From Jiangella sp. DSM 45060 (lineage in GTDB: Bacteria > Actinomycetota > Actinomycetes > Jiangellales > Jiangellaceae), in assembly GCF_900105175.1 (NCBI RefSeq), contig NZ_LT629771.1, positions 7,336,622-7,400,621 of the forward strand: a stretch of DNA of 64,000 bases, written 5' to 3'. The notes beneath the pieces were generated by a model. The model was not told the origin of the DNA and made no database searches. It was given only the letters and a program-made list of their open reading frames with translations. Both the position numbers and the translations under genes were made by a program. Positions 9,516-26,964 of the stretch are shown here, piece after piece (position 1 is the stretch's first letter; every line of letters begins with the position of its first letter).

Positions 9516-10357
9516 TCAGACCCGGCGGCGCAGGGCCCAGACGGAGAGCGGGGCGAACACGGCGGCGATGGCGGCCGCCCAGATCAGCGACTGCACCGCG
9601 GGCGTGGTGGCGGACGCGACGTGCCACTCGGTGCCGAGGGTGTCGTCGCCGACCATGAGCGCCCGGCAGGCGTCGGACAGGATGGTGACGGGGTTGTTCT
9701 CGACGATCGGCTGCAGCCAGCCCGGCATGGTGCTGGTGGGCGCGAACACGTTGCTGACGAACGTCACCGGGAACAGCGCGGTGAAGCCGAACAGCTGCAC
9801 CTTCTCGGGGTCTTTCGCCAGCACGCCGACCAGCACCGACACCCACGAGAACGCCAGCGCGAACACCAGCATGAGGCCCACCGCCGCCAGCAGCGACCAC
9901 ACGTCGGTGCCGATGCGGAAGCCGAGGATCATGCCGATGGCCAGCAGCAGGAAGATCGACCACGCCTGCTTGACCTGGTCGGCGATGATGCGCCCGGCCA
10001 TGGGCGCCCACCTGGCGATGGGCAGCGAGCGCAGGCGGTCGAAGACGCCCTTGGTGAGGTCGATGTTCAGGCCGGTGCCGACGTACATGGTGATGAACAG
10101 CATGTTCATGACGATGATGCCGGGCAGCGCGAACGTGAGGTACTCGCTGGTGGACCCGGCGATGGCGCCGCCGAACACGTAGGTGAACAGCAGCACGAAC
10201 ATGATGGGCTGGATGCTGAAGTCGCCCAGCTCCCACGGGTTGTGCCGCACCTGCACGATGGTGCGCCAGGCCAGCGTCATGGTCTGCCGGACACCTTCGC
10301 CGATGCCGACGCGTGGACTCAGCTCGGCCGGTGCGGGCCGGGCCGCGGTGACGGTGG

Positions 10358-15578: not shown

Positions 15579-16019
15579 TCACGGTTCGAGGTCAGTCACT
15601 CCGTTGCCGCTCGCCAGGTCGAACGGTACGGAGACCTGGTCGTGCGTGATCAACCAGTTGCCGTCGATCTTGCGGAAGCAATAGGTGACCCGGACCCACA
15701 TACCGTTCGTGACCGTCCCGTTCTTCAGCGTTCCGCTGAGCCGAGCGAAGCAGTGCCCGAATGCCACGTCATCGCCCACGGTGAGTGTCAGGTCGCGAAC
15801 TTCATAGCGTGCATCCTGGAAGAACGTGAACGCGGTCGCCCAGTTCTTCGACTTCGCCGCCAGCCCCACATGCTGCAGCGGCGGTTCGATGTCGAAGGAC
15901 ACGACGTCCGTTGCGTAGAGCTGTTTCAGGCTCTCGAGATCCTTGGTTCGGATTCCTTCGACGATCTGGTCGACCTGCTGCCTGATCTTGACGTCGTCCA
16001 CCTCGCGTTGGCTTGGCAT
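15579..16019 (-). CDS. SnoaL-like / nuclear transport factor 2 family protein
   Basis: A 146-residue protein of the NTF2-like fold: IRQQVDQIVEGIRTKDLESLKQLYATDVVSFD opens it, and the C-terminal strands include RVTYCFRKIDGNWLITHDQ. Members are small ketosteroid-isomerase-like enzymes or stress proteins. The substrate here is unknown. It is the only intact gene within the 14484-16243 island and appears less GC-rich than its neighbours, so it is probably cargo. The ATG is at 16019. Confidence 0.8.
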   Translation of the reverse strand: MPSQREVDDVKIRQQVDQIVEGIRTKDLESLKQLYATDVVSFDIEPPLQHVGLAAKSKNWATAFTFFQDARYEVRDLTLTVGDDVAFGHCFARLSGTLKNGTVTNGMWVRVTYCFRKIDGNWLITHDQVSVPFDLASGNGVTDLEP

Positions 16020-16210
16020 CGCTCCCCATCCTCCATCCGAACCTCAACCTTGGCTTCTCGCCTGTACGACGACACAGCACCCCGGCATGTGACACGCCAG
16101 GTCCGTAACCTGACGCGACGCCTGCGGCGTTCGTCGAGGCCCAGGCCCGGTCGAGGTCGGGTGAAGGGCAGTGCAAACCAATCACCGGCCACGCACGCTG
16201 CCCGGCGTGT

Positions 16211-16243
16211 CACCAACCCGGCCAACGTTCATGGACACAGCAC
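16211..16243 (-). repeat. Solitary IS630-like end marking the right border of the island
   Basis: On the minus strand it reads GTGCTGTGTCCATGAACG followed by TTGGCCGGGTTG, with CTAG at its outer edge (16243-16246). It shares GTGCTGTG and GCCGGG with the ends of the IS at 14484-15289 but is diverged in the middle. It therefore belongs to a different, now lost, element. The rest of 16020-16210 shows no gene. Confidence 0.6.
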
Positions 16244-16932
16244 TAGCGCTTCAGGCAGGTATAGGCGCCGAACAGGCCGGCGTCGTCGTACTCGACGTCG
16301 GCGAGGTCGAAGCCGGCGTGGTCGATCATGGGCTCGAGCAGCCAGCGGAACGTGCTGTGCTCGGTGCGGACGTGCTCCGCATAGTCAGCACCCGTGTAGC
16401 CCGCCGCCGGGTCGTCGACGCCGCCGGCCACCCAGCCGTCCATGACCTGCTCGGTGGTGGCGGACGGGAAGTCGTACACGAGGTCGCGCAGCCGCAGCAC
16501 GCCGCCCGGGCGCAGCAGGCCGGCGATGCGGTGAAGCGCGACCACCTTCCAGAAGTCGGGCAGCTGGTGCAGCGCGTGCCGGGTGTAGACGGCGTCGACG
16601 AGCTCGCCTGCGTGGGCGTAGCTGAGGAACCCGGCCTGGACCAGCTCGACGGTGACCCCGGCGGCCCGCGCCCGCTCGCCGAGGTACGCCAGCATCGCCG
16701 GCGACACGTCGACCGCCACCACGCGGTCGAACGCCGCGGCGGCCGGTACGGCGAACTGGCCGGTGCCGGCGCCGAGGTCGACGACCGACCGCACCCCGTA
16801 CGAGGCCAGCACCTCGATGTCGGACGCGGGGTCGGGGTAGCCCTGCTTGCGGTCGAAGCCGGCGACGAAGTCGGGGTCGAGGTGTTCCGGGCCGGCGTGT
16901 ACGGTCTCGTCGAGCATCCAGGTCGGGCGCAT
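16243..16932 (-). CDS. Class I SAM-dependent methyltransferase
   Basis: A 229-residue methyltransferase with motif I VVDLGAGTGQFAVP (about residues 49-62), the acidic end of beta-2 VVAVDVSPAM and the later motif LLRPGGVLRLRDLVYDF. The substrate is unknown; the sequence resembles general small-molecule methyltransferases. The stop TAG lies in the CTAG where the mobile island ends, and the protein still ends normally (AYTCLKR). The start at 16932 is an ATG. It is 11 bp downstream of the XRE regulator on the same strand and probably co-transcribed. Confidence 0.85.
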   Translation of the reverse strand: MRPTWMLDETVHAGPEHLDPDFVAGFDRKQGYPDPASDIEVLASYGVRSVVDLGAGTGQFAVPAAAAFDRVVAVDVSPAMLAYLGERARAAGVTVELVQAGFLSYAHAGELVDAVYTRHALHQLPDFWKVVALHRIAGLLRPGGVLRLRDLVYDFPSATTEQVMDGWVAGGVDDPAAGYTGADYAEHVRTEHSTFRWLLEPMIDHAGFDLADVEYDDAGLFGAYTCLKR

Positions 16933-16943
16933 GGGCCCGATCG

Positions 16944-17807
16944 TCACACGCGTGAACGCTCGTCCGCAGCCGGTTTTCCGCCGGCCGGGCGGGTGATCGT
17001 GCTGCTGAGCAGCGCGATGGCCTGCTCGGACGGGCTCCCCGGTTCCGCGTGGTAGGCGACGATCAGCTGGCCGGGCGCGCCGTTCACCGCCAGCGACTCG
17101 TACCGCAGCGTGAGCTCGCCGACCAGCGGGTGCCGGAACCGTTTGGTGCCCGACGTCTTGGGCCGGACGTCGTGGCGCGCCCACAGCCGGCGGAACTCGT
17201 CGCTCTTCAACGACAGCTCCCCGACGAGGTCGGTGAGCGCGGGGTCGTCGAGGTCGGCGCCGGCGGCCGCGCGCAGGCTGGCCACGGCCTCGGCCGCGAC
17301 GGCGTCCCAGTCGGGGTACAGCTCGCGCGCGTCGGGGTCCAGGAACACCGCGCGGACCTGGTTCACGCCTGGCGCGGAGCACGAGGCGACGCTGGCGCCG
17401 AGTGCGTTGACGGCGAGCACGTCGAGGCGGCGCCCGAGCACCAGCGCGGGCGTGGAGGTCCAGCCGTCGAGCAGCAGCTGGATGCCGTCGCTGACCCGTT
17501 CGGGCCGGCTCGGCGCCCGCCGGCGGCGCCGCGCCGGGCGGGCCAGCTCGCGCACGTGGGCGACGCCGTCGTCGTCGAGCCCGAGGACCCCGGCCAGGGC
17601 CTCGATGACCTGCTCGGACGGGTGCTTGTCGCGGCCCTGCTCGAGCCGCACGTAGTAGTCGGCGCTGACCCCGGCCAGCATCGCGACCTCTTCGCGGCGC
17701 AGGCCCGGCACCCGCCGCCGGCCGAAGCCGTCGGGCAGCCCCACGTCGGCGGGCTGGGCCAGCTCGCGCCGCGCCCGCAGGTACTCGCCGAGCCGGTTGT
17801 CCGTCAC
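16944..17807 (-). CDS. XRE-family transcriptional regulator with MmyB-like ligand domain
   Basis: A 287-residue regulator. The helix-turn-helix is at about residues 10-75 (VPGLRREEVAMLAGVSADYYVRLEQGR), a hallmark of this actinomycete group. The C-terminal two-thirds form the MmyB-like PAS domain (TPALVLGRRLDVLAVNALG...FLDPDARELYPDW). Such genes commonly sit opposite a short-chain dehydrogenase and repress it, and that is the arrangement here. The GTG at 17807 starts VTDNRLGEYLRARR. A short inverted repeat ACCCT-ACG-AGGGT overlaps and follows the start and may be its operator. Confidence 0.88.
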   Translation of the reverse strand: MTDNRLGEYLRARRELAQPADVGLPDGFGRRRVPGLRREEVAMLAGVSADYYVRLEQGRDKHPSEQVIEALAGVLGLDDDGVAHVRELARPARRRRRAPSRPERVSDGIQLLLDGWTSTPALVLGRRLDVLAVNALGASVASCSAPGVNQVRAVFLDPDARELYPDWDAVAAEAVASLRAAAGADLDDPALTDLVGELSLKSDEFRRLWARHDVRPKTSGTKRFRHPLVGELTLRYESLAVNGAPGQLIVAYHAEPGSPSEQAIALLSSTITRPAGGKPAADERSRV

Positions 17808-17922
17808 CCTACGAGGGTAGGCGGGCCGGGCTCGCCGTGGGTGGCCGTGCGACTCCCAGGGTCCGGTCTCCTGGTCGTCGGGCGGTCTGGTCGGCCCGTC
17901 ACGTTCGCCGGATCGTGGAGCC

Positions 17923-18681
17923 ATGACGACAGCACAGAACACCGACACACTGACCGGCCGCGTCGCGGTGGTCACCGGAGCCACGAGCGGGATCGGCGCG
18001 GCGACGGCCCGCCGGCTGGCCGAGGGCGGCGCCGCCGTCGCGGTGGTCGGCCGTCGAGAGGACCGGCTGAAGATCCTCGCGGACGAGATCGGCGGCCTCG
18101 CGGTGCCGGCCGACGTGAGCGACATCGCCGCCATGACGGCCGCGGCCGGCGCCATCCGCGCCGAGCTCGGCCGGGTCGACCTCGTGGTCGCCAACGCCGG
18201 CGTCATGCTGGCCGCGCCGTTCGAGTCCGCCGAGACCCGCGAATGGGACCAGATGATCGCGACGAACGTGAACGGCCTGCTCTACACCGGCCGGGCGTTC
18301 GCCGACGACCTCCTCGCGACGGCGGCCGACGGCGGGACGGCCGACCTGGTGCACGTCGGCTCGATCGGGTCGCACGGGATCTTCCCCGACTACGCCGTGT
18401 ACGCCGCCACCAAGGCGGCCGTCGCGCACCTGACCCGGAACCTGCGCGCCGAGCTCGGACCGCGTGGCGTCCGGGTGAAGAACGTCGAGCCGGGCTTCGT
18501 CGGAACCGAACTCGGGGATGGCATGCTCGACTCCGCCAAGCGCGAGGAGCTGTCGCGGTGGCGTGGCGCGATCGAGATCCTGCGCTCGGAGGACATCGCC
18601 GACGCGATCGCCTTCGCCGTCGCGGCGCCCCCGCGGGTCAACGTCGCCGAGCTGATCGTCGTCCCGACCGCTCAGGGCTAG
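17923..18681 (+). CDS. Short-chain dehydrogenase/reductase (SDR)
   Basis: A 252-residue classical SDR. It has cofactor motif TGATSGIG (about residues 19-26), VVGRR (NADP preference, inferred), NAGV, and the catalytic pair in YAVYAATK (Tyr-x3-Lys, about residue 160) after GSIGS. The substrate is unknown. It is divergent from the XRE regulator, with 115 bp between start codons. A 7-bp-stem hairpin follows its stop. Confidence 0.92.
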   Translation: MTTAQNTDTLTGRVAVVTGATSGIGAATARRLAEGGAAVAVVGRREDRLKILADEIGGLAVPADVSDIAAMTAAAGAIRAELGRVDLVVANAGVMLAAPFESAETREWDQMIATNVNGLLYTGRAFADDLLATAADGGTADLVHVGSIGSHGIFPDYAVYAATKAAVAHLTRNLRAELGPRGVRVKNVEPGFVGTELGDGMLDSAKREELSRWRGAIEILRSEDIADAIAFAVAAPPRVNVAELIVVPTAQG

Positions 18682-18684
18682 CCT

Positions 18685-18712
18685 GCTGCCGCCATTCGCG
18701 TGATTCGGCAGC
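18685..18712 (+). terminator. Hairpin after the SDR gene
   Basis: GCTGCCG and CGGCAGC enclose a 14-base loop just after the SDR stop, with no T-tract. It may reduce read-through into the nicotianamine-synthase-like gene. Confidence 0.4.
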
Positions 18713-18746
18713 GCGGCCGCCACCGGCTGTGCCATGATCAGCCGCG

Positions 18747-19610
18747 ATGAACATGAGTCTCACTAGCAACATATTCGGTCAAACCGACCTGACCGACCTC
18801 CGCCGGCCGACGGCGCAGGACGTCGCGGCCTCGGTGGGTGAGGTGTACCGGGAGCTGGCCGCGCGCGACGACCTGCGGCCGGGCCCGGAGGTGGACGGGC
18901 TGTTCGGGCGGCTGGTGCGGCTGGTCCTCACCGCGCCGGCCGAGACTGTGCCCGCCGTCCTCAACGACGTCGAGATCCAGCGGCTGGCGCCCAGGCTGCG
19001 CGCCCTCTGCGCCCGCGGCGAGGGGGAGCTGGAGCACGCCTGGGCGCACCGGATCGTCGCCGGCCGGCCGCCGCGGGAGGAGCTGGCGCGGTTCCCGTAC
19101 TTCGGGAACTACCGCCAGCTCAGCCGCATGGAGATCGGCGTCCTGGCGTCCGCGCTGCCGCGCCGGGTGCGGTCGGTCGCGTTCGTCGGGTCCGGGCCGT
19201 TGCCGCTGAGCTCGCTGTACCTGGCCGGCGAACTGGACGTCGCGGTCGACAACTTCGACCGCGACCCGGTGGCGCTGCACACCGGCGCCGCGGTGTCGGC
19301 CGCACTCGGCTACGGCGAGCTGGGCTTCCACGAGGCGGACGTGCTGGCGGCGGACCTGTCCGGCTACGACGTGGTGGTGCTGGCCGCGCTGGTCGGCGAC
19401 ACGCTCGAGGCGAAGCGGCGGGTGCTGCGGCACCTGGCCGTCACCATGCGTCCCGGCGCCGTCCTGCTCGCCCGCAGCGCCCGCGGCCTGCGCACGCTGC
19501 TCTACCCGCCGATCGACCGGACCGCGCTCGACGGGTTCGAGCCGCTGACGGAGGTGCACCCGGTGAACGACGTCATCAACTCGGCGATCCTGGCCCGGGC
19601 CGGAGGCTGA
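18747..19610 (+). CDS. Nicotianamine-synthase-like enzyme
   Basis: A 287-residue protein with the full NAS fold signature: FPYFGNYRQLSRMEI (116-130), AFVGSGPLPLSSLYLA (145-160), VDNFDRD (167-173), YDVVVLAALVGDTLEAK (207-223) and RSARGLRTLLYP (243-254). NAS-family enzymes move the aminobutyrate group of SAM onto an amine or amino acid to build metal chelators such as nicotianamine and the staphylopine precursor. Which amine acceptor is used here cannot be read. The ATG is at 18747 (ATG 18753 also possible). The stop is one base before the GTG of an ATP-grasp ligase, so the two form a unit. Confidence 0.9.
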   Translation: MNMSLTSNIFGQTDLTDLRRPTAQDVAASVGEVYRELAARDDLRPGPEVDGLFGRLVRLVLTAPAETVPAVLNDVEIQRLAPRLRALCARGEGELEHAWAHRIVAGRPPREELARFPYFGNYRQLSRMEIGVLASALPRRVRSVAFVGSGPLPLSSLYLAGELDVAVDNFDRDPVALHTGAAVSAALGYGELGFHEADVLAADLSGYDVVVLAALVGDTLEAKRRVLRHLAVTMRPGAVLLARSARGLRTLLYPPIDRTALDGFEPLTEVHPVNDVINSAILARAGG

Positions 19611-19611
19611 C

Positions 19612-20880
19612 GTGGCGACGCTGCTCATGGTGGAGAGCTGGGTGCAGTCGACGGGGCTCGCGCTGCCGCCGCTGCTGCGCGAGGCGGGCCACGACTACAT
19701 CCTGTTCACCCGCGACCCCGGCCTCTACCCGGACGTCGACGGCGAACGGCACCCGGTGCTGCGCGACGCCGACGAGGTGATCGTCGTCGACACCAACGAC
19801 CGGGCCGCCATGACCGGCGCCGTCATCGGCATCGTGTGCCGGCGGCGCATCGACGGCGTGATCACCACCTGCGACTACTACCTCGACGCGGTCGCGGAGC
19901 TGGCCAAGATGCTCGGGCTGCCCGGGGCGTCGCCGGACATCGTGCGCCGGGCCGTGCGCAAGGACGCGGTGCGGACGGTGCTCGCCCGGGCCGGGCTGCC
20001 CGGCCCGCGCTTCGCGGTCGCAGCGACATGGGAGGACGCGCTGGCCGGCGCGGCGGAGCTGGCCTTCCCGCTGGTCGCGAAGCCGGTCGACCTCAACTCC
20101 GGCACGTCGGTGCACCTCGTCGACGGCGAGGCGGCGCTGAAAGACGTGTTCTACGAGGTCACCGGTGTCGAGCGGAACACTCGCGACCAGCCGCTGGCCC
20201 GCCGGCTGCTGCTCGAGGAGGTCCTGCGCGGCCCCGAGGTCAGCGTCGAGACGGTCACCGCCGCCGGGCGGACCACGGTGCTCGGCATCACCGGCAAGAG
20301 CGTCACGCCGACGTTCGTCGAGGCCGGGCACGTGTTCCCGGCGCCGCTGCCGCCCGCCGTCGCCGCCGAGGTGACCGAGCACGTCCGGTCGGCTCTCGCC
20401 GCGCTCGGCATCAGCCACGGCCTGAGCCACACCGAGCTCCGCCTGACGCCGTCCGGGCCGCGGATCGTCGAGATCAACCCGCGCCAGGGCGGCGGCTACG
20501 TGTTCGACCTCGTCCGCACGGTGACCGGGGTCAGCCCGCTGGCGCTGCTGGTCGACCTCGCGCTCGGTCGGGCGACCGAGCTGGACGTGCGGCCGCGGGG
20601 CACGGCGGCGGTCGCGTTCGTGTTGGCGCCGGTCGACGGCATCGTCACCGCCGTCGAGGGCCGCGACGCGCTGGACGACGACCCGGCGATCGTCCGCTGG
20701 CAGCTGGACGTGCCCGGACCCGTGCGCCGTCCCCGCGACAACAACGACCGCGTCGGCCACGTGCTCGCCGTCGACCCGGACGGCGACCGCGCCGGCGAGC
20801 TGGCCGCCTCCGCCGTCGGCTCGCTCGCCCTGCGCATGGCCGGCGGCGAGGTCGTCACACCCCAGGCGATCGGCGTCTGA
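19612..20880 (+). CDS. ATP-grasp ligase partnered with the NAS-like enzyme
   Basis: A 422-residue ATP-grasp enzyme. The N-terminal domain begins ATLLMVESWVQSTGLALP. The ATP-binding domain has LVAKPVDLNSGTSV (Lys near residue 157), LLLEEVLRGPEVSVE and the metal-binding end RIVEINPRQGGGY (about 284-296). The last 100 residues resemble the C-terminal domain of carboxylate-amine ligases. The expected reaction is amide-bond formation through an acyl phosphate, joining a carboxylate to an amine. The adjoining NAS-like gene suggests it adds a residue to a chelator backbone. It has its own GGAGG site within the NAS 3' end. Confidence 0.88.
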   Translation: MATLLMVESWVQSTGLALPPLLREAGHDYILFTRDPGLYPDVDGERHPVLRDADEVIVVDTNDRAAMTGAVIGIVCRRRIDGVITTCDYYLDAVAELAKMLGLPGASPDIVRRAVRKDAVRTVLARAGLPGPRFAVAATWEDALAGAAELAFPLVAKPVDLNSGTSVHLVDGEAALKDVFYEVTGVERNTRDQPLARRLLLEEVLRGPEVSVETVTAAGRTTVLGITGKSVTPTFVEAGHVFPAPLPPAVAAEVTEHVRSALAALGISHGLSHTELRLTPSGPRIVEINPRQGGGYVFDLVRTVTGVSPLALLVDLALGRATELDVRPRGTAAVAFVLAPVDGIVTAVEGRDALDDDPAIVRWQLDVPGPVRRPRDNNDRVGHVLAVDPDGDRAGELAASAVGSLALRMAGGEVVTPQAIGV

Positions 20881-20892
20881 GCAAGCGCTTGC
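20881..20892. promoter_or_regulatory. LacI/GalR-type operator-like palindrome
   Basis: GCAAGCGCTTGC abuts the stop of the ATP-grasp gene and fits the LacI-family core AANCGNTT. No LacI-family regulator gene is in the window. It lies 74 bp upstream of the WXG100-like gene. Confidence 0.4.
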
Positions 20893-20894
20893 CC

Positions 20895-20917
20895 CGCGCG
20901 CGGCCGGTGAGCGCGCG
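20895..20917 (+). terminator. GC hairpin between the ligase and toxin operons
   Basis: CGCGCGC and GCGCGCG flank a 9-base loop. It could end the NAS/ATP-grasp transcript. Alternating CG can also form by chance in DNA of this composition. Confidence 0.35.
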
Positions 20918-20965
20918 CGTGGCATCATGGCGGCCTCGAAACGATCAACCGGGCGGGAGCTGCCG

Positions 20966-21256
20966 GTGGCCGACCAGGTGTCCAATCCCTACCGCGCCGC
21001 CCTGTGCGCGAGCCGCGACGACGCCCGGCCGGTGTCGGACGATCTCAAGAGCGACCTCGACGCCGCCGTCCAGGCCATGGACAACGGCGCCTGGCAGAGC
21101 AGTATCGCCGACACGTTCTACACCGAGCTCACGGAGCACAAGGCCACGCTGGCCACCGCGGCCGAGGGCGTCATGACGGAGTTCGGCGACGCCATCGAGG
21201 GCCAGGAGCCGATGGTCGACGCCAACGCTTGGCAGGTGCGCTGGAGGAACCTGTGA
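20966..21256 (+). CDS. WXG100-like (ESX/type VII) protein
   Basis: A 96-residue all-alpha protein of the length expected for WXG100 effectors or chaperones. The turn between helices reads NGAWQSSIADTFYTEL, a W-x-S form of the WXG motif. The GTG at 20966 is chosen because GGGAG lies six bases upstream; ATG 20927 would add 13 residues without a good ribosome site. The stop overlaps the toxin gene's GTG as GTGA. It probably guides the toxin through an ESX system. No secretion machinery is encoded in the window. Confidence 0.75.
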   Translation: MADQVSNPYRAALCASRDDARPVSDDLKSDLDAAVQAMDNGAWQSSIADTFYTELTEHKATLATAAEGVMTEFGDAIEGQEPMVDANAWQVRWRNL

Positions 21257-23211
21257 GCATCGCCGCCATCGACATCGCGGAGCTGGCCGGCCTCGTCACC
21301 GCGCTGGAGAACGCGGCGGAGAACATCGCCACCCGGCGCGGCGACCTCAGCGGCGAGCTGTCGGGCGTCCACCTGCCCACCACCGAGCTCAACCGCCTCG
21401 ACGCCGTCGAGGGGTGGATCGACGACGAGCTGCCCGGGCTGCGGCGCCGACTGGCCCTGGCGCGGCACATCGAAGCCCAAACTCCGGGGCCGCAGGCGTT
21501 CGTCCAGCTGGACGAGTCGACGATCCCGACCGCGACGCCGGAGGAGGCCCGCGAGCGTGCCGACCGGGCCGCGGAGCTGATCGAGGACTACGACGACGGC
21601 GACCCGCCCCAGGAACTGGTCGACCTGTTGGCGGAGAACGCGACCGACCCGTACTTCGCCCACCAGCTCGCCACCCAGGTGTCGCCCGAGGAGGTCGCCG
21701 ACTTCATCGTCAGCGCGTCGAGCACCCGGCGTCAGATGGCCGGCGCGACGATGCCCGACGACGTCGAGGACGTGGAGCGGTTCGACGAGGCGTACGAGGC
21801 GACGCTCGACGGCCTCGGCGCCGCCTACGGCACGGCCACCCAGGGCACCGGCGACCTCGCCCTGCCCGACGACTACGCCGCGTCGTGGTCGTCGGCCATC
21901 ACCGAGGAGTCGCCGGAGGTGCTCGGCCAGGCCAGCGCGCTCGGCCTGGTCATCTCCCGCGGCACCTTCTCCGCCGACTTCCTCACCACCGTCGCCACCG
22001 ACGTCTACGAGTACGAGCGCGAGCTCGACGAGGACGACATGTGGTGGAAGCGGGCGCACTCGGAGATGGGCGCCGACGGCTACGGCGCCATCGACCCCGT
22101 GCACGGCGACGACGAGGGCGCGCCGACCGGCTACACCGAGTACTACGACCCGCTGGCCGGCATCATGTCCGCGGTCGGGCGCAACCCCGAGGCCGGCCAC
22201 GCCCTGTTCGGCACCGGCACGTTCACCTACATCGAGGCCGGCGACGAGTCGGGCATGGTCAACGAGTTCCTCGAGTACGTCCTGGCGAAGCGCAAGTGGC
22301 CGGTCGACGACGGGGCGGGTGCCGACGCGGCCATCGCGGCGGCCATCACCCCGTACGAGGGCGGCAGCACGATGAGCACCAGCATCGCCCGCGACGCCCA
22401 CGAGATCCTCACCATCAAGGCCGCCGAGATCGAGGAGCGCCGCGAGGACTCCAACCCGTTCTCCGACATCGGCCACCTGATCCTCGACGGCCTCGGCCTG
22501 ATCCCGATCCTCGGCGAGCCGGTCGACGCCATCAACGCCCTCTGGTACGCGGCCGAGGGCAACGTCGTCGACGCCGGCCTGTCCGCCGCCGGCATGATCC
22601 CGTTCATGGGCTGGGGCGCCACCGGCGGCCGGTGGACCCGGCGGGCGCTCAACGCCGACGAGCTCGCCGCGCTGCGCCAGACCGACGGGCTCGACGAGCT
22701 GCCCGAGGGCTTCGACGGCATCGCCCGGGCCGACGATCTCCACGTCGACCTGAGCGAGACCGATAGGCTGGCCCTGGAGGACTACACCGGGGACGGGTAC
22801 TGGGACATGAACGCCGCGCTACGCAACCCCGGCGCCGACATCCCGGCCGGCCTGCAGGGACGTATCGATCGGGTCTCCGACGCGCTGGCCAACCTGCCGG
22901 CCCACCCCGGCACGACCTACCGCGGCACCGATCTGAACGACAGCCAGCTGGCCAACTACGAGCCCGGCGAGGTCGTCACGGAACGCGGGTTCATGAGCAC
23001 GAGCACCGACCCCGACGTCGCCGACTCCGATTTCGAGGGCAACACGTACTTCATCGTCGAGGGCCGTTCCGGCCGCGACGTGGCGCCGTACTCGGAGGTC
23101 TCGCACGAGGCGGAGATCCTCTTCAACACCGGGACGGAGTTCGAGGTCCTCGACAAGGTGTTCGACGAGGACATGGGCAAGTGGGTCATCCGGCTGAGGG
23201 AGGCGCCATGA
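21253..23211 (+). CDS. Polymorphic toxin with C-terminal ADP-ribosyltransferase domain
   Basis: A 652-residue putative ESX-exported toxin. The N-terminal 100 residues are helical. A long middle region follows, then a pre-toxin hydrophobic stretch at about 418-460 (LIPILGEPVDAINALWY, SAAGMIPFMGWGATGG). The C-terminal domain has the R-S-E signature of arginine-type ADP-ribosyltransferases: Arg557 in TYRGTDL, Ser582-Thr-Ser584 in FMSTSTD, and Glu619-x-Glu621 in SHEAEILF. It should transfer ADP-ribose from NAD to a target protein, which is unknown. It is coupled to the WXG100-like gene upstream and to an 85-codon gene downstream (ATGA overlap). Confidence 0.88.
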   Translation: MSIAAIDIAELAGLVTALENAAENIATRRGDLSGELSGVHLPTTELNRLDAVEGWIDDELPGLRRRLALARHIEAQTPGPQAFVQLDESTIPTATPEEARERADRAAELIEDYDDGDPPQELVDLLAENATDPYFAHQLATQVSPEEVADFIVSASSTRRQMAGATMPDDVEDVERFDEAYEATLDGLGAAYGTATQGTGDLALPDDYAASWSSAITEESPEVLGQASALGLVISRGTFSADFLTTVATDVYEYERELDEDDMWWKRAHSEMGADGYGAIDPVHGDDEGAPTGYTEYYDPLAGIMSAVGRNPEAGHALFGTGTFTYIEAGDESGMVNEFLEYVLAKRKWPVDDGAGADAAIAAAITPYEGGSTMSTSIARDAHEILTIKAAEIEERREDSNPFSDIGHLILDGLGLIPILGEPVDAINALWYAAEGNVVDAGLSAAGMIPFMGWGATGGRWTRRALNADELAALRQTDGLDELPEGFDGIARADDLHVDLSETDRLALEDYTGDGYWDMNAALRNPGADIPAGLQGRIDRVSDALANLPAHPGTTYRGTDLNDSQLANYEPGEVVTERGFMSTSTDPDVADSDFEGNTYFIVEGRSGRDVAPYSEVSHEAEILFNTGTEFEVLDKVFDEDMGKWVIRLREAP

Positions 23212-23465
23212 CGACAGCAGGGCCCGACGACGTCTCCCCTGAGGAGCGGGAGCGGACACTGGAGGCCATCGCGAAGCTCAAGAGTGAGCTCGCGGCGGCG
23301 AAGCGGCGGCCGCGGCGACCGGGCGTGAACGCCGCCAAGTTCCACGGCTCCATCGGTCTCGACGACGACGGCAACCCGCAGGCGCCGCTGACCCCGGCGG
23401 AGCGCCGGCGCAAGGAGGAGTGGCGGCGGCGCGCCAAGGGACCGCGCGGCTCCGAGTCCGAGTGA
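23208..23465 (+). CDS. Small charged protein, possible immunity protein for the ART toxin
   Basis: An 85-residue protein that overlaps the toxin stop by four bases. It is rich in Glu, Lys and Arg (VSPEERERTLEAIAKLKSEL, then RRKEEWRRRAKG), with one predicted coiled-coil helix and a short central motif FHGSIGLDDDGNPQ. It has no family match I recognise. Position suggests an immunity protein. However, immunity proteins to ART toxins are usually larger, so a chaperone or regulatory role is also possible. Confidence 0.6.
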   Translation: MTTAGPDDVSPEERERTLEAIAKLKSELAAAKRRPRRPGVNAAKFHGSIGLDDDGNPQAPLTPAERRRKEEWRRRAKGPRGSESE

Positions 23466-23469
23466 TCGG

Positions 23470-24738
23470 TTAGAGGAACAGCTCCACCACCGGCACCAGC
23501 ACGTCCGGGCGGACCGTCGGCAGCCGCAGCGTCAGCGTGTCCGGCGGCTGACCACCCGGCCTCGTGTTCCAGGCCTGCTGGCCGGGCGCCAGCCTGATCG
23601 TCGTCAGCTCCGACCCGTCGTTCAGCAGTTGCGCGTAGCGCACCCGATCGGCCATCCCGCGCAGATGCACGTGCTCGAACGGCCACGCGAACAGGTGGAC
23701 GTACAGCCGGTCGCCGCGCTGGGTGAGGACGGCGCCCGGCGGCAGCCCCGGCGCCACGGCCGCCGCGAGGTCCGGCGCGGCCGGTCCGGCGCCCACCACC
23801 GAGCGCCCGTGCAGCCGCATCCACTCGGCCAACGCGTCCAGCAGGGCCACGTCCCGGGCCGGCAGCGCGCCCCGTCCGTCCGGGCCCACGTTGAGCAGCA
23901 GGTTGCCGCCCTTCGCGACGGTGTCGACGAGCATCCGCACCAGCAGGTCCGGCGTCTTGAACCGGGTGTTGTCGCGGTCGTAGCCCCAGCTCCCGTTCAG
24001 CGTCTGGCAGGCCTCCCACGCGATCGGCGCGCCGTCCGGCCCGCGCATCGGCTCGGCCGGCTGGTACTGCTCCGGCGTGACGAGGTCGCCCGGGACGCCC
24101 AGGCGGTCGTTCACGACGATGCCCGGCTGCAGCTCGCGGACCATGGCCAGCAGTTCGTCCGCGGCCCAGTCCTCCGGGTACTTGCCGCGCACGCCGTCGC
24201 GGTCCTCGGCGTAGGTGTAGTCGAAGAACAGGTAGTCGACGCGGCCGTAGCCGGTGAGCAGCTCGCGCACCTGGGCGTGCAGGTAGGCGCGGTAGCGCGC
24301 CATGTCTCGGGGCGGGCCAGGCGGGTCGTCGCGGCGAGGGTGCAGATAGTCGACGGTGAAGTCGGGGTGGTGCCAGTCGATGAGGGAGTGGTACAGCCCG
24401 ACCCGCAACCCCTCGGCGCGGACGGCGTCGGCGAACTCCGCGACGAGGTCGCGCCCGCACACCGCGGCCGACGTGTAGTCGCTGGCGGCGGAGTCCCACA
24501 GGCCGAAGCCCTCGTGGTGCTTGCTCGTCAGCACGACGTACCCCATGCCGGCCGAGCGGGCGGCGCGGGCGATGGCGCGGGCGTCGAACAGGTCCGGGTC
24601 GAAGATCTCCGCGTAGCGCTCGTACTCCGCGAGCGGCGTGCGTTCGCGCGACATCACCCACTCGTGCCGGGCGGCCAGTGAGTACAGCCCGAAGTGCACG
24701 AACATCCCGAACCGGGCCTGGGTGAACCAGTCCGCCAT
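23470..24738 (-). CDS. Alpha-L-fucosidase, GH29 family
   Basis: A 422-residue glycosidase. N-terminal features of GH29 are FGMFVHFGLYSL (residues 10-21), LTSKHHEGFGLWDS (70-83) and the nucleophile motif VDYLFFDYTY with Asp173. The C-terminal 80 residues form the usual beta-sandwich. No signal peptide is present, so it should act in the cytosol on imported fucosides. The ATG at 24738 has GAGG six bases upstream and removes a long Arg/Pro-rich prefix. It is divergent from the RraA-like gene, and a palindrome lies 86 bp upstream of its start codon. Confidence 0.88.
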   Translation of the reverse strand: MADWFTQARFGMFVHFGLYSLAARHEWVMSRERTPLAEYERYAEIFDPDLFDARAIARAARSAGMGYVVLTSKHHEGFGLWDSAASDYTSAAVCGRDLVAEFADAVRAEGLRVGLYHSLIDWHHPDFTVDYLHPRRDDPPGPPRDMARYRAYLHAQVRELLTGYGRVDYLFFDYTYAEDRDGVRGKYPEDWAADELLAMVRELQPGIVVNDRLGVPGDLVTPEQYQPAEPMRGPDGAPIAWEACQTLNGSWGYDRDNTRFKTPDLLVRMLVDTVAKGGNLLLNVGPDGRGALPARDVALLDALAEWMRLHGRSVVGAGPAAPDLAAAVAPGLPPGAVLTQRGDRLYVHLFAWPFEHVHLRGMADRVRYAQLLNDGSELTTIRLAPGQQAWNTRPGGQPPDTLTLRLPTVRPDVLVPVVELFL

Positions 24739-24823
24739 CTCGTTCCTCGCTCCCATCGAAGCCGCCGGCCGTCCATCGTCGCCGAGCCCGGGGTCTTGAC
24801 ACGACGGCGGGGTGACCGGTTTC

Positions 24824-24841
24824 CTATCGCTCAATCGATAG
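24824..24841. promoter_or_regulatory. Palindromic operator candidate upstream of the fucosidase and RraA-like genes
   Basis: CTATCG-CTCAAT-CGATAG, a perfect 6-6-6 inverted repeat between the divergent genes. The core TATCG-TCAA-GATA is similar to the site at 35395-35417 in the other divergent promoter of the island. Both could be bound by the island's GntR-family regulator. Confidence 0.6.
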
Positions 24842-24881
24842 ACGATAAGTGATCCGCGATCATACTCCGAGAGGACGCCGG

Positions 24882-25670
24882 ATGAACACCGAGCAGGACG
24901 GTTATCCGACCGGCCACACCCCCTTGCTCTCCGACCCGCCCGGGCGGCCGGCGCGCGCGCTGGTCGAGGCGTTGTCCGGGGTGAGCGCGGCCACCGCCTG
25001 CGCGAAGCTGCACCACCAGGGCGTCACCCGGACGTTCATCGACGGCCCGGCGCCGCTGCACCGCGACGCCGAGATCCGCGTCACCGGCGCCGCCGTCACG
25101 CTGCAGTTCATGCCGCAGCGCGAGGACGTGTTCACCGGCCAGGGCCAGGAGGACGCGGAGCGGCGCTCGGCGCTGTGGGCGGTGCTGGAGTCGATCCGCC
25201 CCGGCGACGTGCTGGTGGTGTCGGCGCAGGCGGCCCAGCGCACCGGCTGCCTCGGCGACATGCTCGTGCGCTACTTCAAGCTGCGCGGCGGCGCCGGCAT
25301 CGTCGTCGACGGGCGCATCCGCGACGCCGGCCGGGTGCGCGCGCTCGGGGTGCCGGTCTGGTGCACCGGGGTCACCCCGCATTATGCGTCCCAGACCGAG
25401 TTGTTCCCGTACGCGTACAACGTGCCGGTCGCGGTCGGCGGGGCGCTGGTGCGCCCCGGCGACCTGGTGATCGCCGACGACGACGGCGCCGTGGTGGTGC
25501 CGCCGTCGCACGCCCAGGCGATCGCCGATGACGCACTCGCCCACCAGGACAAGGAGGAGTTCGCCCGCCGGCGTCTCGATGCCGGCGGACGGCTGTCCGA
25601 CTACTACCCGCTGACCGGCCGGGGCCTGGACGAGTACGTCGCCCACCAGGGCAGCAGCAACGGCCGCTGA
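24882..25670 (+). CDS. RraA-like family protein (aldolase/dimethylmenaquinone-methyltransferase fold)
   Basis: A 262-residue protein. The RraA-type core is GDMLVRYFKLRGGAG followed by IVVDGRIRD (the Arg-Asp pair near residue 150). Members include 4-hydroxy-4-methyl-2-oxoglutarate aldolases that split 2-oxo acids, and E. coli RraA, which binds RNase E instead. In a sugar-catabolic island the aldolase-type role is more likely, with cleavage of a 2-keto-3-deoxy sugar acid as an inference. The ATG at 24882 has GAGAGGAC upstream. It opens the importer operon. Confidence 0.8.
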   Translation: MNTEQDGYPTGHTPLLSDPPGRPARALVEALSGVSAATACAKLHHQGVTRTFIDGPAPLHRDAEIRVTGAAVTLQFMPQREDVFTGQGQEDAERRSALWAVLESIRPGDVLVVSAQAAQRTGCLGDMLVRYFKLRGGAGIVVDGRIRDAGRVRALGVPVWCTGVTPHYASQTELFPYAYNVPVAVGGALVRPGDLVIADDDGAVVVPPSHAQAIADDALAHQDKEEFARRRLDAGGRLSDYYPLTGRGLDEYVAHQGSSNGR

Positions 25671-25704: not shown

Positions 25705-26964
25705 ATGACCATGAACAGCAGGCGGCGATTCCTGACGGCCGGAGTGCTGGCCTCAGCGGTGCTGACGGCGTCGGCGTGCGGTGGCGGTGACGACGACGTC
25801 GCGGGCGGCGAGGGCGGCGACACCACGCTGCGGATGATCGTCAACATCACCCCCAACCTCACCGAGCAGTTCTGGAACGAGCTGTTCGACAAGTACGAGG
25901 CGGAGAACCCCGGCATCACGGTCGAGCTGGAGCTGACCGGGACCATCGAGGCGGAGGCCAAGCTGCAGCAGGACCTCGCCGCGGGCGACCCGCCCGACAT
26001 CGCGCAGCACGTCGTCCCGAACCCGGAGACGGCGGAGCTGTTCGTCGACCTGTCCGACGAGGACTGGGCCGCCGACACCCCGCTGTTCGACGAGTACGCG
26101 ATCGACGACGGGCACTACGTCGTGGGTGTCGGCGAGCAGATCCAGTCGCTGGTGTTCTACAACAAGGCGGCCTTCGAGGAGGCCGGCGTCGACGCCACGC
26201 AACTGCAGACCATCGCGCAGTTCGAGGACGCGATGCGCAAGCTGCAGGCGGCCGGCTACCAGCCGCTGCAGTCGGCCGGCCAGTGGGTCACCGGCGCGCA
26301 GTTCACCATGCTGGCCGACGCCGGCGTCCTCACCGACGAGCCGGACTGGGTGATCGAGCGCAAGAACGGCGAGACGTCCTTCGCCGACAGCGGCTACCTG
26401 CGCTACTTCGAGCTGTACGAGTCGTGGCTGAAGGAGGGCTTCCTCACCCAGAGCGCGCTCGGCCTGGAGTACCCGGACGGGCAGGCAGCGTTCCTCGCGG
26501 GCGACTCGGCGATGTACATCATGGGCTCGTACTTCGTGCCCGCCGCCGACGAGGCCGGGCTGAGCGACCAGATCGGCGTCTTCCCCGTCCCGGCCGACGG
26601 CACCTACCCGCCCGGCCAGTTCGGCAACATGGCCCAGCCGTACACCGTCGTCGAGGCCTCCGACGCGAAGGAGGAGGCGATCGACCTCGTCGAGTGGCTG
26701 GTCACCGACGACGAGGCGATCGAGATCCAGCTCGCCGCCGACGGCAACCTGCGCAAGGGCTTCAGCTACGACGTGTCCAGCCTCGGCGAGGGCGTCCAGG
26801 CGGTCCTCGACGCCAGCCCGATGGTCATCGTCAAGCAGGGCGAGCGGCAGCCGGTGCACGGCTACGCGGAGGAGCTGAACACGCAGGTCCAGTCCCTGTT
26901 CACCGGCTCCTCGGCCAGTGACGTCGCCGCCAACCTGGACACGTGGTGGGACTCGCAGCGCTGA
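25705..26964 (+). CDS. ABC transporter sugar-binding lipoprotein
   Basis: A 419-residue solute-binding protein. It has a twin-arginine leader (SRRRFL) and a lipobox ending SAC near residue 26, so it is probably exported by Tat and lipid-anchored. The mature part is the usual type 1 sugar-binding fold (GTIEAEAKLQQDLAAGDPPDI, then NKAAFEEAGVDATQLQTI). It probably binds fucosides or fucose. The start is ATG 25705 (25711 is alternative). The permease genes follow directly. Confidence 0.9.
   Translation: MTMNSRRRFLTAGVLASAVLTASACGGGDDDVAGGEGGDTTLRMIVNITPNLTEQFWNELFDKYEAENPGITVELELTGTIEAEAKLQQDLAAGDPPDIAQHVVPNPETAELFVDLSDEDWAADTPLFDEYAIDDGHYVVGVGEQIQSLVFYNKAAFEEAGVDATQLQTIAQFEDAMRKLQAAGYQPLQSAGQWVTGAQFTMLADAGVLTDEPDWVIERKNGETSFADSGYLRYFELYESWLKEGFLTQSALGLEYPDGQAAFLAGDSAMYIMGSYFVPAADEAGLSDQIGVFPVPADGTYPPGQFGNMAQPYTVVEASDAKEEAIDLVEWLVTDDEAIEIQLAADGNLRKGFSYDVSSLGEGVQAVLDASPMVIVKQGERQPVHGYAEELNTQVQSLFTGSSASDVAANLDTWWDSQR

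Follow-up and report, generated by a model that had tools for sequence, protein, structure and literature searches.

The opine-type zincophores staphylopine, pseudopaline, yersinopine and bacillopaline are produced with the enzyme pair CntL and CntM, whereas thermonicotianamine synthase of Methanothermobacter (MtNAS) is known as a stand-alone synthase. The window analyzed here, a stretch of 64,000 nucleotides at positions 7,336,622–7,400,621 of the genome of Jiangella sp. DSM 45060, contains a two-gene unit that differs from both. A gene for a nicotianamine synthase-like enzyme (hereafter NAS) is paired with a gene for an ATP-grasp amide ligase (LIG), which takes the place of CntM, and, unlike the opine-type systems, the pair has neither an exporter nor an importer beside it. 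LIG shares the fold, the domain set, the LAL_C2 domain and the ATP-grasp residues of bacterial L-amino acid ligases such as BL00235, BacD/YwfE and RizA but differs from them in being linked to NAS and not to bacilysin-type genes.

General background on NAS is available (PMC10248798, consulted for the portion accessible to us). Zur-controlled metallophore biosynthesis in actinomycetes has been described for coelibactin and ethylenediamine-disuccinate (PMC6103462). The Jiangella unit appears to be similar to these pathways in its control by Zur, but the biosynthetic genes are different, and the accessible part of that paper does not describe them as NAS-based. ATP-grasp neighbours have been reported for AZE synthases but, in the accessible part of the source, not for NAS (PMC11794875), and the term "metallophore" does not occur in the available portion of PMC7029138. 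Zincophores of the NAS family have been described, as have amino acid ligases, and it is their combination under a Zur-like box that is new in the sense that we found no description of it in the literature searched; most subscription papers were outside the scope of that search, and we do not claim that the combination is unpublished.

NAS and its ligase partner

The protein encoded by the first gene matched the PF03059 profile of Pfam with 204.9 bits (cut-off 27.1), the only such match in the 7.49-Mb single-contig genome of this strain. An initial sequence-only reading had proposed a complete NAS-like enzyme with the motifs VGSGPLPLSS, NFD and ALVGDTLEAK, and all three are indeed present in the open reading frame. 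Structure comparison identified MtNAS and CntL as the closest folds, of which MtNAS is the nearer (~22% identity), and the residues aligned with the active-site Glu and Tyr of MtNAS (E81 and Y107) are invariant. In the predicted structure, residues 1–9 and 11–14 have pLDDT values below 50, and the protein as called begins with a variable, probably disordered extension of ~20 residues; the first codons of this extension bear a DNA-level motif. The J. alba enzyme is 97% identical to that of the window.

Three domains were found in LIG, all above cut-off: ATP-grasp_4, ATPgrasp_N and LAL_C2, the C-terminal domain of L-amino acid ligases. The closest folds are those of BL00235 and BacD/YwfE, although identity to the solved L-amino acid ligases does not exceed 24%, and the ATP-grasp residues are invariant. 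As the sequence-only reading had noted, LIG starts one base after the end of NAS (Table 1). When the window copies were compared with those of 11 other Jiangella genomes, pN/pS was 0.17–0.45 for NAS and 0.18–0.48 for LIG.

Table 1. Features of the NAS-LIG unit, numbered from the first base of the window
Feature	Position	Strand	Remarks
Extended -10-like element TGTGCCATGAT	18728..18738	+	ends 8 bases before NAS start codon; alignment by eye
Zur-box-like 7-1-7 motif TGAACATGAGTCTCA	18748..18762	+	overlaps NAS start codon; 20/20 family NAS loci
NAS, putative NAS-like aminobutyrate (3-amino-3-carboxypropyl) transferase	18747..19610	+	287 aa; ordered core from ~residue 22
LIG, putative ATP-grasp L-amino-acid-ligase-type enzyme	19612..20880	+	422 aa; GTG start

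When 148 related genomes were searched at the protein level, NAS was detected in 21, namely Jiangella sp. DSM 45060 itself, 11 others of the genus, eight of the family Jiangellaceae, and one genome of another family (G098). Twenty of the 22 Jiangellaceae genomes searched encode NAS, and the two that do not are 81% and 75% complete. Conserved adjacency of NAS and an ATP-grasp gene had been named beforehand as a check, and it was borne out in each of the 20 NAS-bearing Jiangellaceae genomes: LIG lies directly 3' of NAS, with a gap of 1–2 nt in 19 of them and of -16 nt in one. The flanks of the pair, as approximated with a home-made gene caller, differ between genomes of the family. In the window, the unit is preceded by an SDR gene on the same strand and followed by an ORF of 109 amino acids and a gene for an ADP-ribosyltransferase-domain protein, in agreement with the SDR gene and toxin operon first described as its neighbours. 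The SDR and ADP-ribosyltransferase genes were not accepted as members of the unit, because in 20 other genomes (window excluded) SDR was found near the pair in nine of 21 wide loci, all from Jiangella, and the ADP-ribosyltransferase in only one (G004). The downstream genes occupy positions 20927–23211; the 109-aa ORF has no Pfam match, and the ADP-ribosyltransferase domain is C-terminal in a protein of 652 aa. The proposed separation of the unit by hairpins was not substantiated, as the scan found no terminator-like sites in 18500–21100.

The absence of an opine dehydrogenase and of dedicated transporters, also noted in the initial reading, was confirmed for the seven neighbouring ORFs scanned (15579–25670), which gave no match to either type of protein, opine dehydrogenase or metal transporter. 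No transporter is conserved beside the pair in the family. The PF10100 profile of opine dehydrogenases had no matches in the 22 family genomes, although the control genomes gave none either. The gene that adjoins NAS is LIG in all 20 family genomes, which fits the view that an amide ligase stands in the opine dehydrogenase's place.

The pair is probably more widespread than the genomes opened here, because the best 120 homologues of NAS and the best 120 of LIG (119 usable rows) had 27 contigs of equal size in common, as opposed to 0–4 when the sizes were shifted by 1–10 bases. Nine of these 27 were named Jiangellaceae records or the genome of DSM 45060 itself; in the same lists, Promicromonospora, Antribacter and Haloechinothrix have homologues of both NAS and LIG.

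A motif resembling a Zur box at the start of NAS

Alignment of the 20 upstream regions revealed a near-invariant word, ATGAACATGA[A/G]TCTCA, at the start of NAS; the near-invariant DNA that spans the called start reads TGAACATGA[A/G]TCTCA. Among 12 Jiangella genomes, NAS codons 1–6 show no synonymous change, and indeed no change at all, while the gene overall varies. In the Jiangella loci, as well as in L014 and L015, the NAS frame begins with this word, but in six Phytoactinopolyspora-type loci (L016–L020, L023) it opens a separate small ORF that is out of frame with NAS. The constraint is therefore on the DNA, and a feature of the NAS protein was rejected as the main cause of the conservation. 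The small ORF comprises 25–52 codons, begins with MNMNLI, and lies ~75–155 bases before NAS; in all six loci, its stop codon overlaps a possible NAS start codon. Such an overlap suggests translational coupling on a leaderless message, and the transcripts of the family are probably leaderless, with the leader ORF either coupled or fused to NAS. About 10 bases ahead of the start motif, most of the 20 aligned regions contain a TGTGnnAnnAT-like element, as judged by eye. Since a promoter scan around the unit found no consensus -35/-10 promoter, the evidence for this -10-like element is the alignment.

For Streptomyces coelicolor, 172 regions bound by Zur have yielded the motif tGaNNatSatNNtCa (PMC5472717, accessible part). 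The NAS start site fits 10 of the 11 defined positions of this consensus, missing position 10, and a 7-1-7 box is conserved at the start in all 20 loci. It could not be regarded as unique in the window, where two further sites with one mismatch to the consensus were found, both inside ORFs: one at 10094, in a long ORF that by eye encodes an ABC-2 permease, and one at 25829, in ORF 25705–26964. The case for Zur rests on the conservation of the motif, its position, and its regulon partners.

One of these partners is znuA. In the genome of DSM 45060, znuA and a Fur-family gene point away from each other; the box TGACAATGGTTGTCA lies between them, and 22 bases further on a weaker site overlaps the znuA start. 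All 20 family genomes examined retain the first box with at most one mismatch, and 18 of them retain the second site with at most two. The start words of NAS and znuA are identical at 13 of 19 bases, and of the 951 ATG 19-mers in the window, only the NAS site reached 13 matches to the znuA word. A pattern drawn from the NAS and znuA sites, ATGANNATGNNTCNCA, had 74 matches in 22 genomes, compared with a single match for the reversed control. By our reading, 41 of the 74 are at NAS (20), znuA (18, including that of G014) and aztD (3); the NAS and znuA sites match by construction, except for znuA of G014, which, like the aztD sites of G012, G018 and G021, was not used to draw the pattern. Sites within coding sequences and a recurrent ATGATCATGGTTCTCA-like element are among the remaining 33. 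Of 11 non-NAS matches opened (L119, L242–L251), four are located at znuA or aztD (L243, L244, L247, L250) and seven away from zinc genes. AztD of DSM 45060 matches NF038015 with 490 bits (cut-off 400), and its gene also has a Zur-like box; the other aztD genes were named by similarity to this protein (68%, 57% and, in G012, 32% identity). One of the opened loci (L244, G021:C33) is a second zinc cluster, in which a Zur-like motif overlapping the start precedes genes for an AztD-like protein, whose tail is rich in His, Asp and Glu, and then for a ZnuA-like protein. Another (L242, G012:C25) has a perfect-looking start-overlapping motif, ATGAGAATGAATCTCA, before an ORF of 71 codons, with no zinc gene recognised behind it. 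Judged by sequence, the NAS start motif is likely to be a Zur box, that is, a candidate zinc-sensing switch.

NAS and LIG apart from each other

Across 393 genomes sampled from the class, 22 gave a match to NAS and 59 to LIG (at E values up to 1e-30), and only the 20 Jiangellaceae gave both. Three genomes, G098, G290 and G647, encode NAS together with only distant ATP-grasp proteins, and 39 of the 59 genomes with a LIG match lack NAS. This distribution would fit a pair that consisted of two independent zinc-starvation enzymes in one operon, NAS making a nicotianamine-like ligand by itself and LIG catalyzing a separate ligation. We consider this improbable, because the adjacency in all 20 family genomes, the near-constant spacing and the changing flanks argue that the two enzymes belong to one pathway.

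The NAS gene of G290 has two Zur-like boxes near its 5' end, and its neighbours encode Opp-type ATPases, a permease protein and an MFS protein. In G647, genes for ZnuA, ABC-3 and ATPase proteins and an ArsR-type regulator lie within ~6 kb of NAS, near which no Zur-like box was found. The neighbours scanned in G098 encode a GNAT protein and an aldehyde dehydrogenase, with neither a box nor a zinc context.

Relatives of LIG that are 42–47% identical to the window protein were found without NAS in ten other genomes of the class. In nine of the ten loci opened, the gene order is LIG-DUF364-SbnA-like-epimerase-MFS-methyltransferase, and in the tenth only stretches resembling LIG and SbnA are present; in place of NAS, these operons of Streptomyces and Rhodococcus encode an SbnA-like PLP enzyme and an epimerase. 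A Zur-like box is located 53–108 bases upstream of LIG in seven of the ten loci, and none was found in the other three at the threshold used. The DUF364 match is barely above cut-off (24.3 vs 23), though a named record also calls DUF364, and the SbnA-like, DgcA/epimerase-like, MdtH-like and CntF-like matches are below NCBIfam cut-offs. This operon of ligase, DUF364, SbnA-like, dipeptide epimerase, MFS and methyltransferase genes, mostly with a Zur-like box, was observed in L255–L263, L265 and L266. On plasmids of Streptomyces angustmyceticus and Rhodococcus sp. ZPP, the LIG operon is followed by ABC genes; the former has a box 119 bases upstream, and none was found for the latter at one mismatch. 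Over 400 residues, the MFS protein of G290 shares 40% identity with that of S. angustmyceticus. LIG homologues occur in 308 plasmid records. A plasmid search for NAS gave only two records, both from Halocatena (39%), and the one opened shows no ligase among the annotated neighbours of NAS. We found no paper on the Streptomyces and Rhodococcus LIG operons in the literature searched and know of no described product. The LIG-DUF364-SbnA-like-epimerase operon looks like a zinc metallophore cluster in its own right.

BacD/YwfE-type ligases make antibiotic dipeptides, and the occurrence of LIG homologues in so many other contexts, in the class sample as well as on plasmids, might indicate that the NAS-LIG product is a small molecule unrelated to metals, for example, a dipeptide-like antimetabolite, the Zur-like motif being fortuitous or reflecting the zinc cost of the pathway. 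This seems very improbable given that the motif is near-invariant in all 20 loci and common to the starts of znuA and aztD and that, of the closest LIG operons lacking NAS that were opened, most have a Zur-like box. Apart from each other, the two enzymes are mostly found in metallophore-like or zinc-uptake company. These contexts of each half, together with the Zur-box-like motif at the NAS start, support the metallophore part of the original proposal of a metallophore or opine-like pathway; its opine-like part, taken in the strict sense, is not supported. As for the metal, which had been left open among zinc, nickel, copper and iron, the motif points to zinc.

A possible pathway to a zinc ligand

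On balance, we think it probable that NAS and LIG form a Zur-controlled two-gene zinc-starvation unit that makes a zinc ligand, a pseudopeptide bearing aminobutyrate. Under zinc shortage, Zur would dissociate from its box at the NAS start, and NAS and LIG would be expressed from one message. Like MtNAS and CntL, NAS would then transfer one or more 3-amino-3-carboxypropyl groups of SAM onto the amine of an acceptor amino acid, and LIG would use ATP to convert a carboxylate into an acyl phosphate and join it to an amine, yielding an amide. The resulting aminobutyrate-bearing pseudopeptide is predicted to bind zinc and could be either an exported scavenger or an internal carrier. This scheme builds on the gene content, the folds, the conservation of key residues and of adjacency, and a conserved motif that resembles known Zur boxes; from these we infer the binding of Zur, the substrates, the order of steps, the product, its binding of zinc, and transport by systems encoded elsewhere. 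The lack of a conserved transporter beside the pair, as well as the occurrence of NAS without LIG and of LIG without NAS, speaks against a zinc-ligand pathway. So do the consensus position missed by the NAS box, the two other one-mismatch sites inside ORFs of the window, and the NAS loci of G098 and G647 and the LIG operons in which no box was found.

Nicotianamine is a zinc buffer and carrier inside plant cells, and the product of NAS and LIG may similarly stay in the cell as a cytosolic zinc buffer or carrier instead of being secreted as a scavenger. This is a serious rival because no exporter or importer is conserved beside the family pair, unlike in the G290 NAS locus and the LIG-relative operons, and Zur control would fit it equally well. 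However, when encoded apart, each of the two enzymes has MFS and ABC genes as neighbours in several genomes, and transport genes for the pair may be located elsewhere in the genome. We regard this internal role as rather unlikely.

The NAS-LIG pair of Jiangellaceae and the Zur-boxed LIG-DUF364-SbnA-like-epimerase operons of other actinobacteria might tentatively be viewed as two forms of one class of zinc metallophores made by amide ligation, a possibility to which we give somewhat less than even weight. LIG would be the common amide-forming module, joined to different makers of chelating groups, NAS for aminobutyrate and SbnA-type enzymes for a diamino acid. To our knowledge, no described pathway makes pseudopeptide zincophores of this kind.

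Opine-like zincophores were mapped by way of the dehydrogenase CntM, according to the accessible part of that work (PMC7438024), an approach that would miss NAS-LIG loci, as would other dehydrogenase-based searches. A Zur-boxed NAS beside an amide ligase would mean that the zinc-scavenger chemistry of the NAS family is wider than the opine type. The prediction is that zinc starvation induces the pair and that its product is an aminobutyrate-bearing amide. The same considerations suggest a role for the Streptomyces and Rhodococcus ligase operons as a family.
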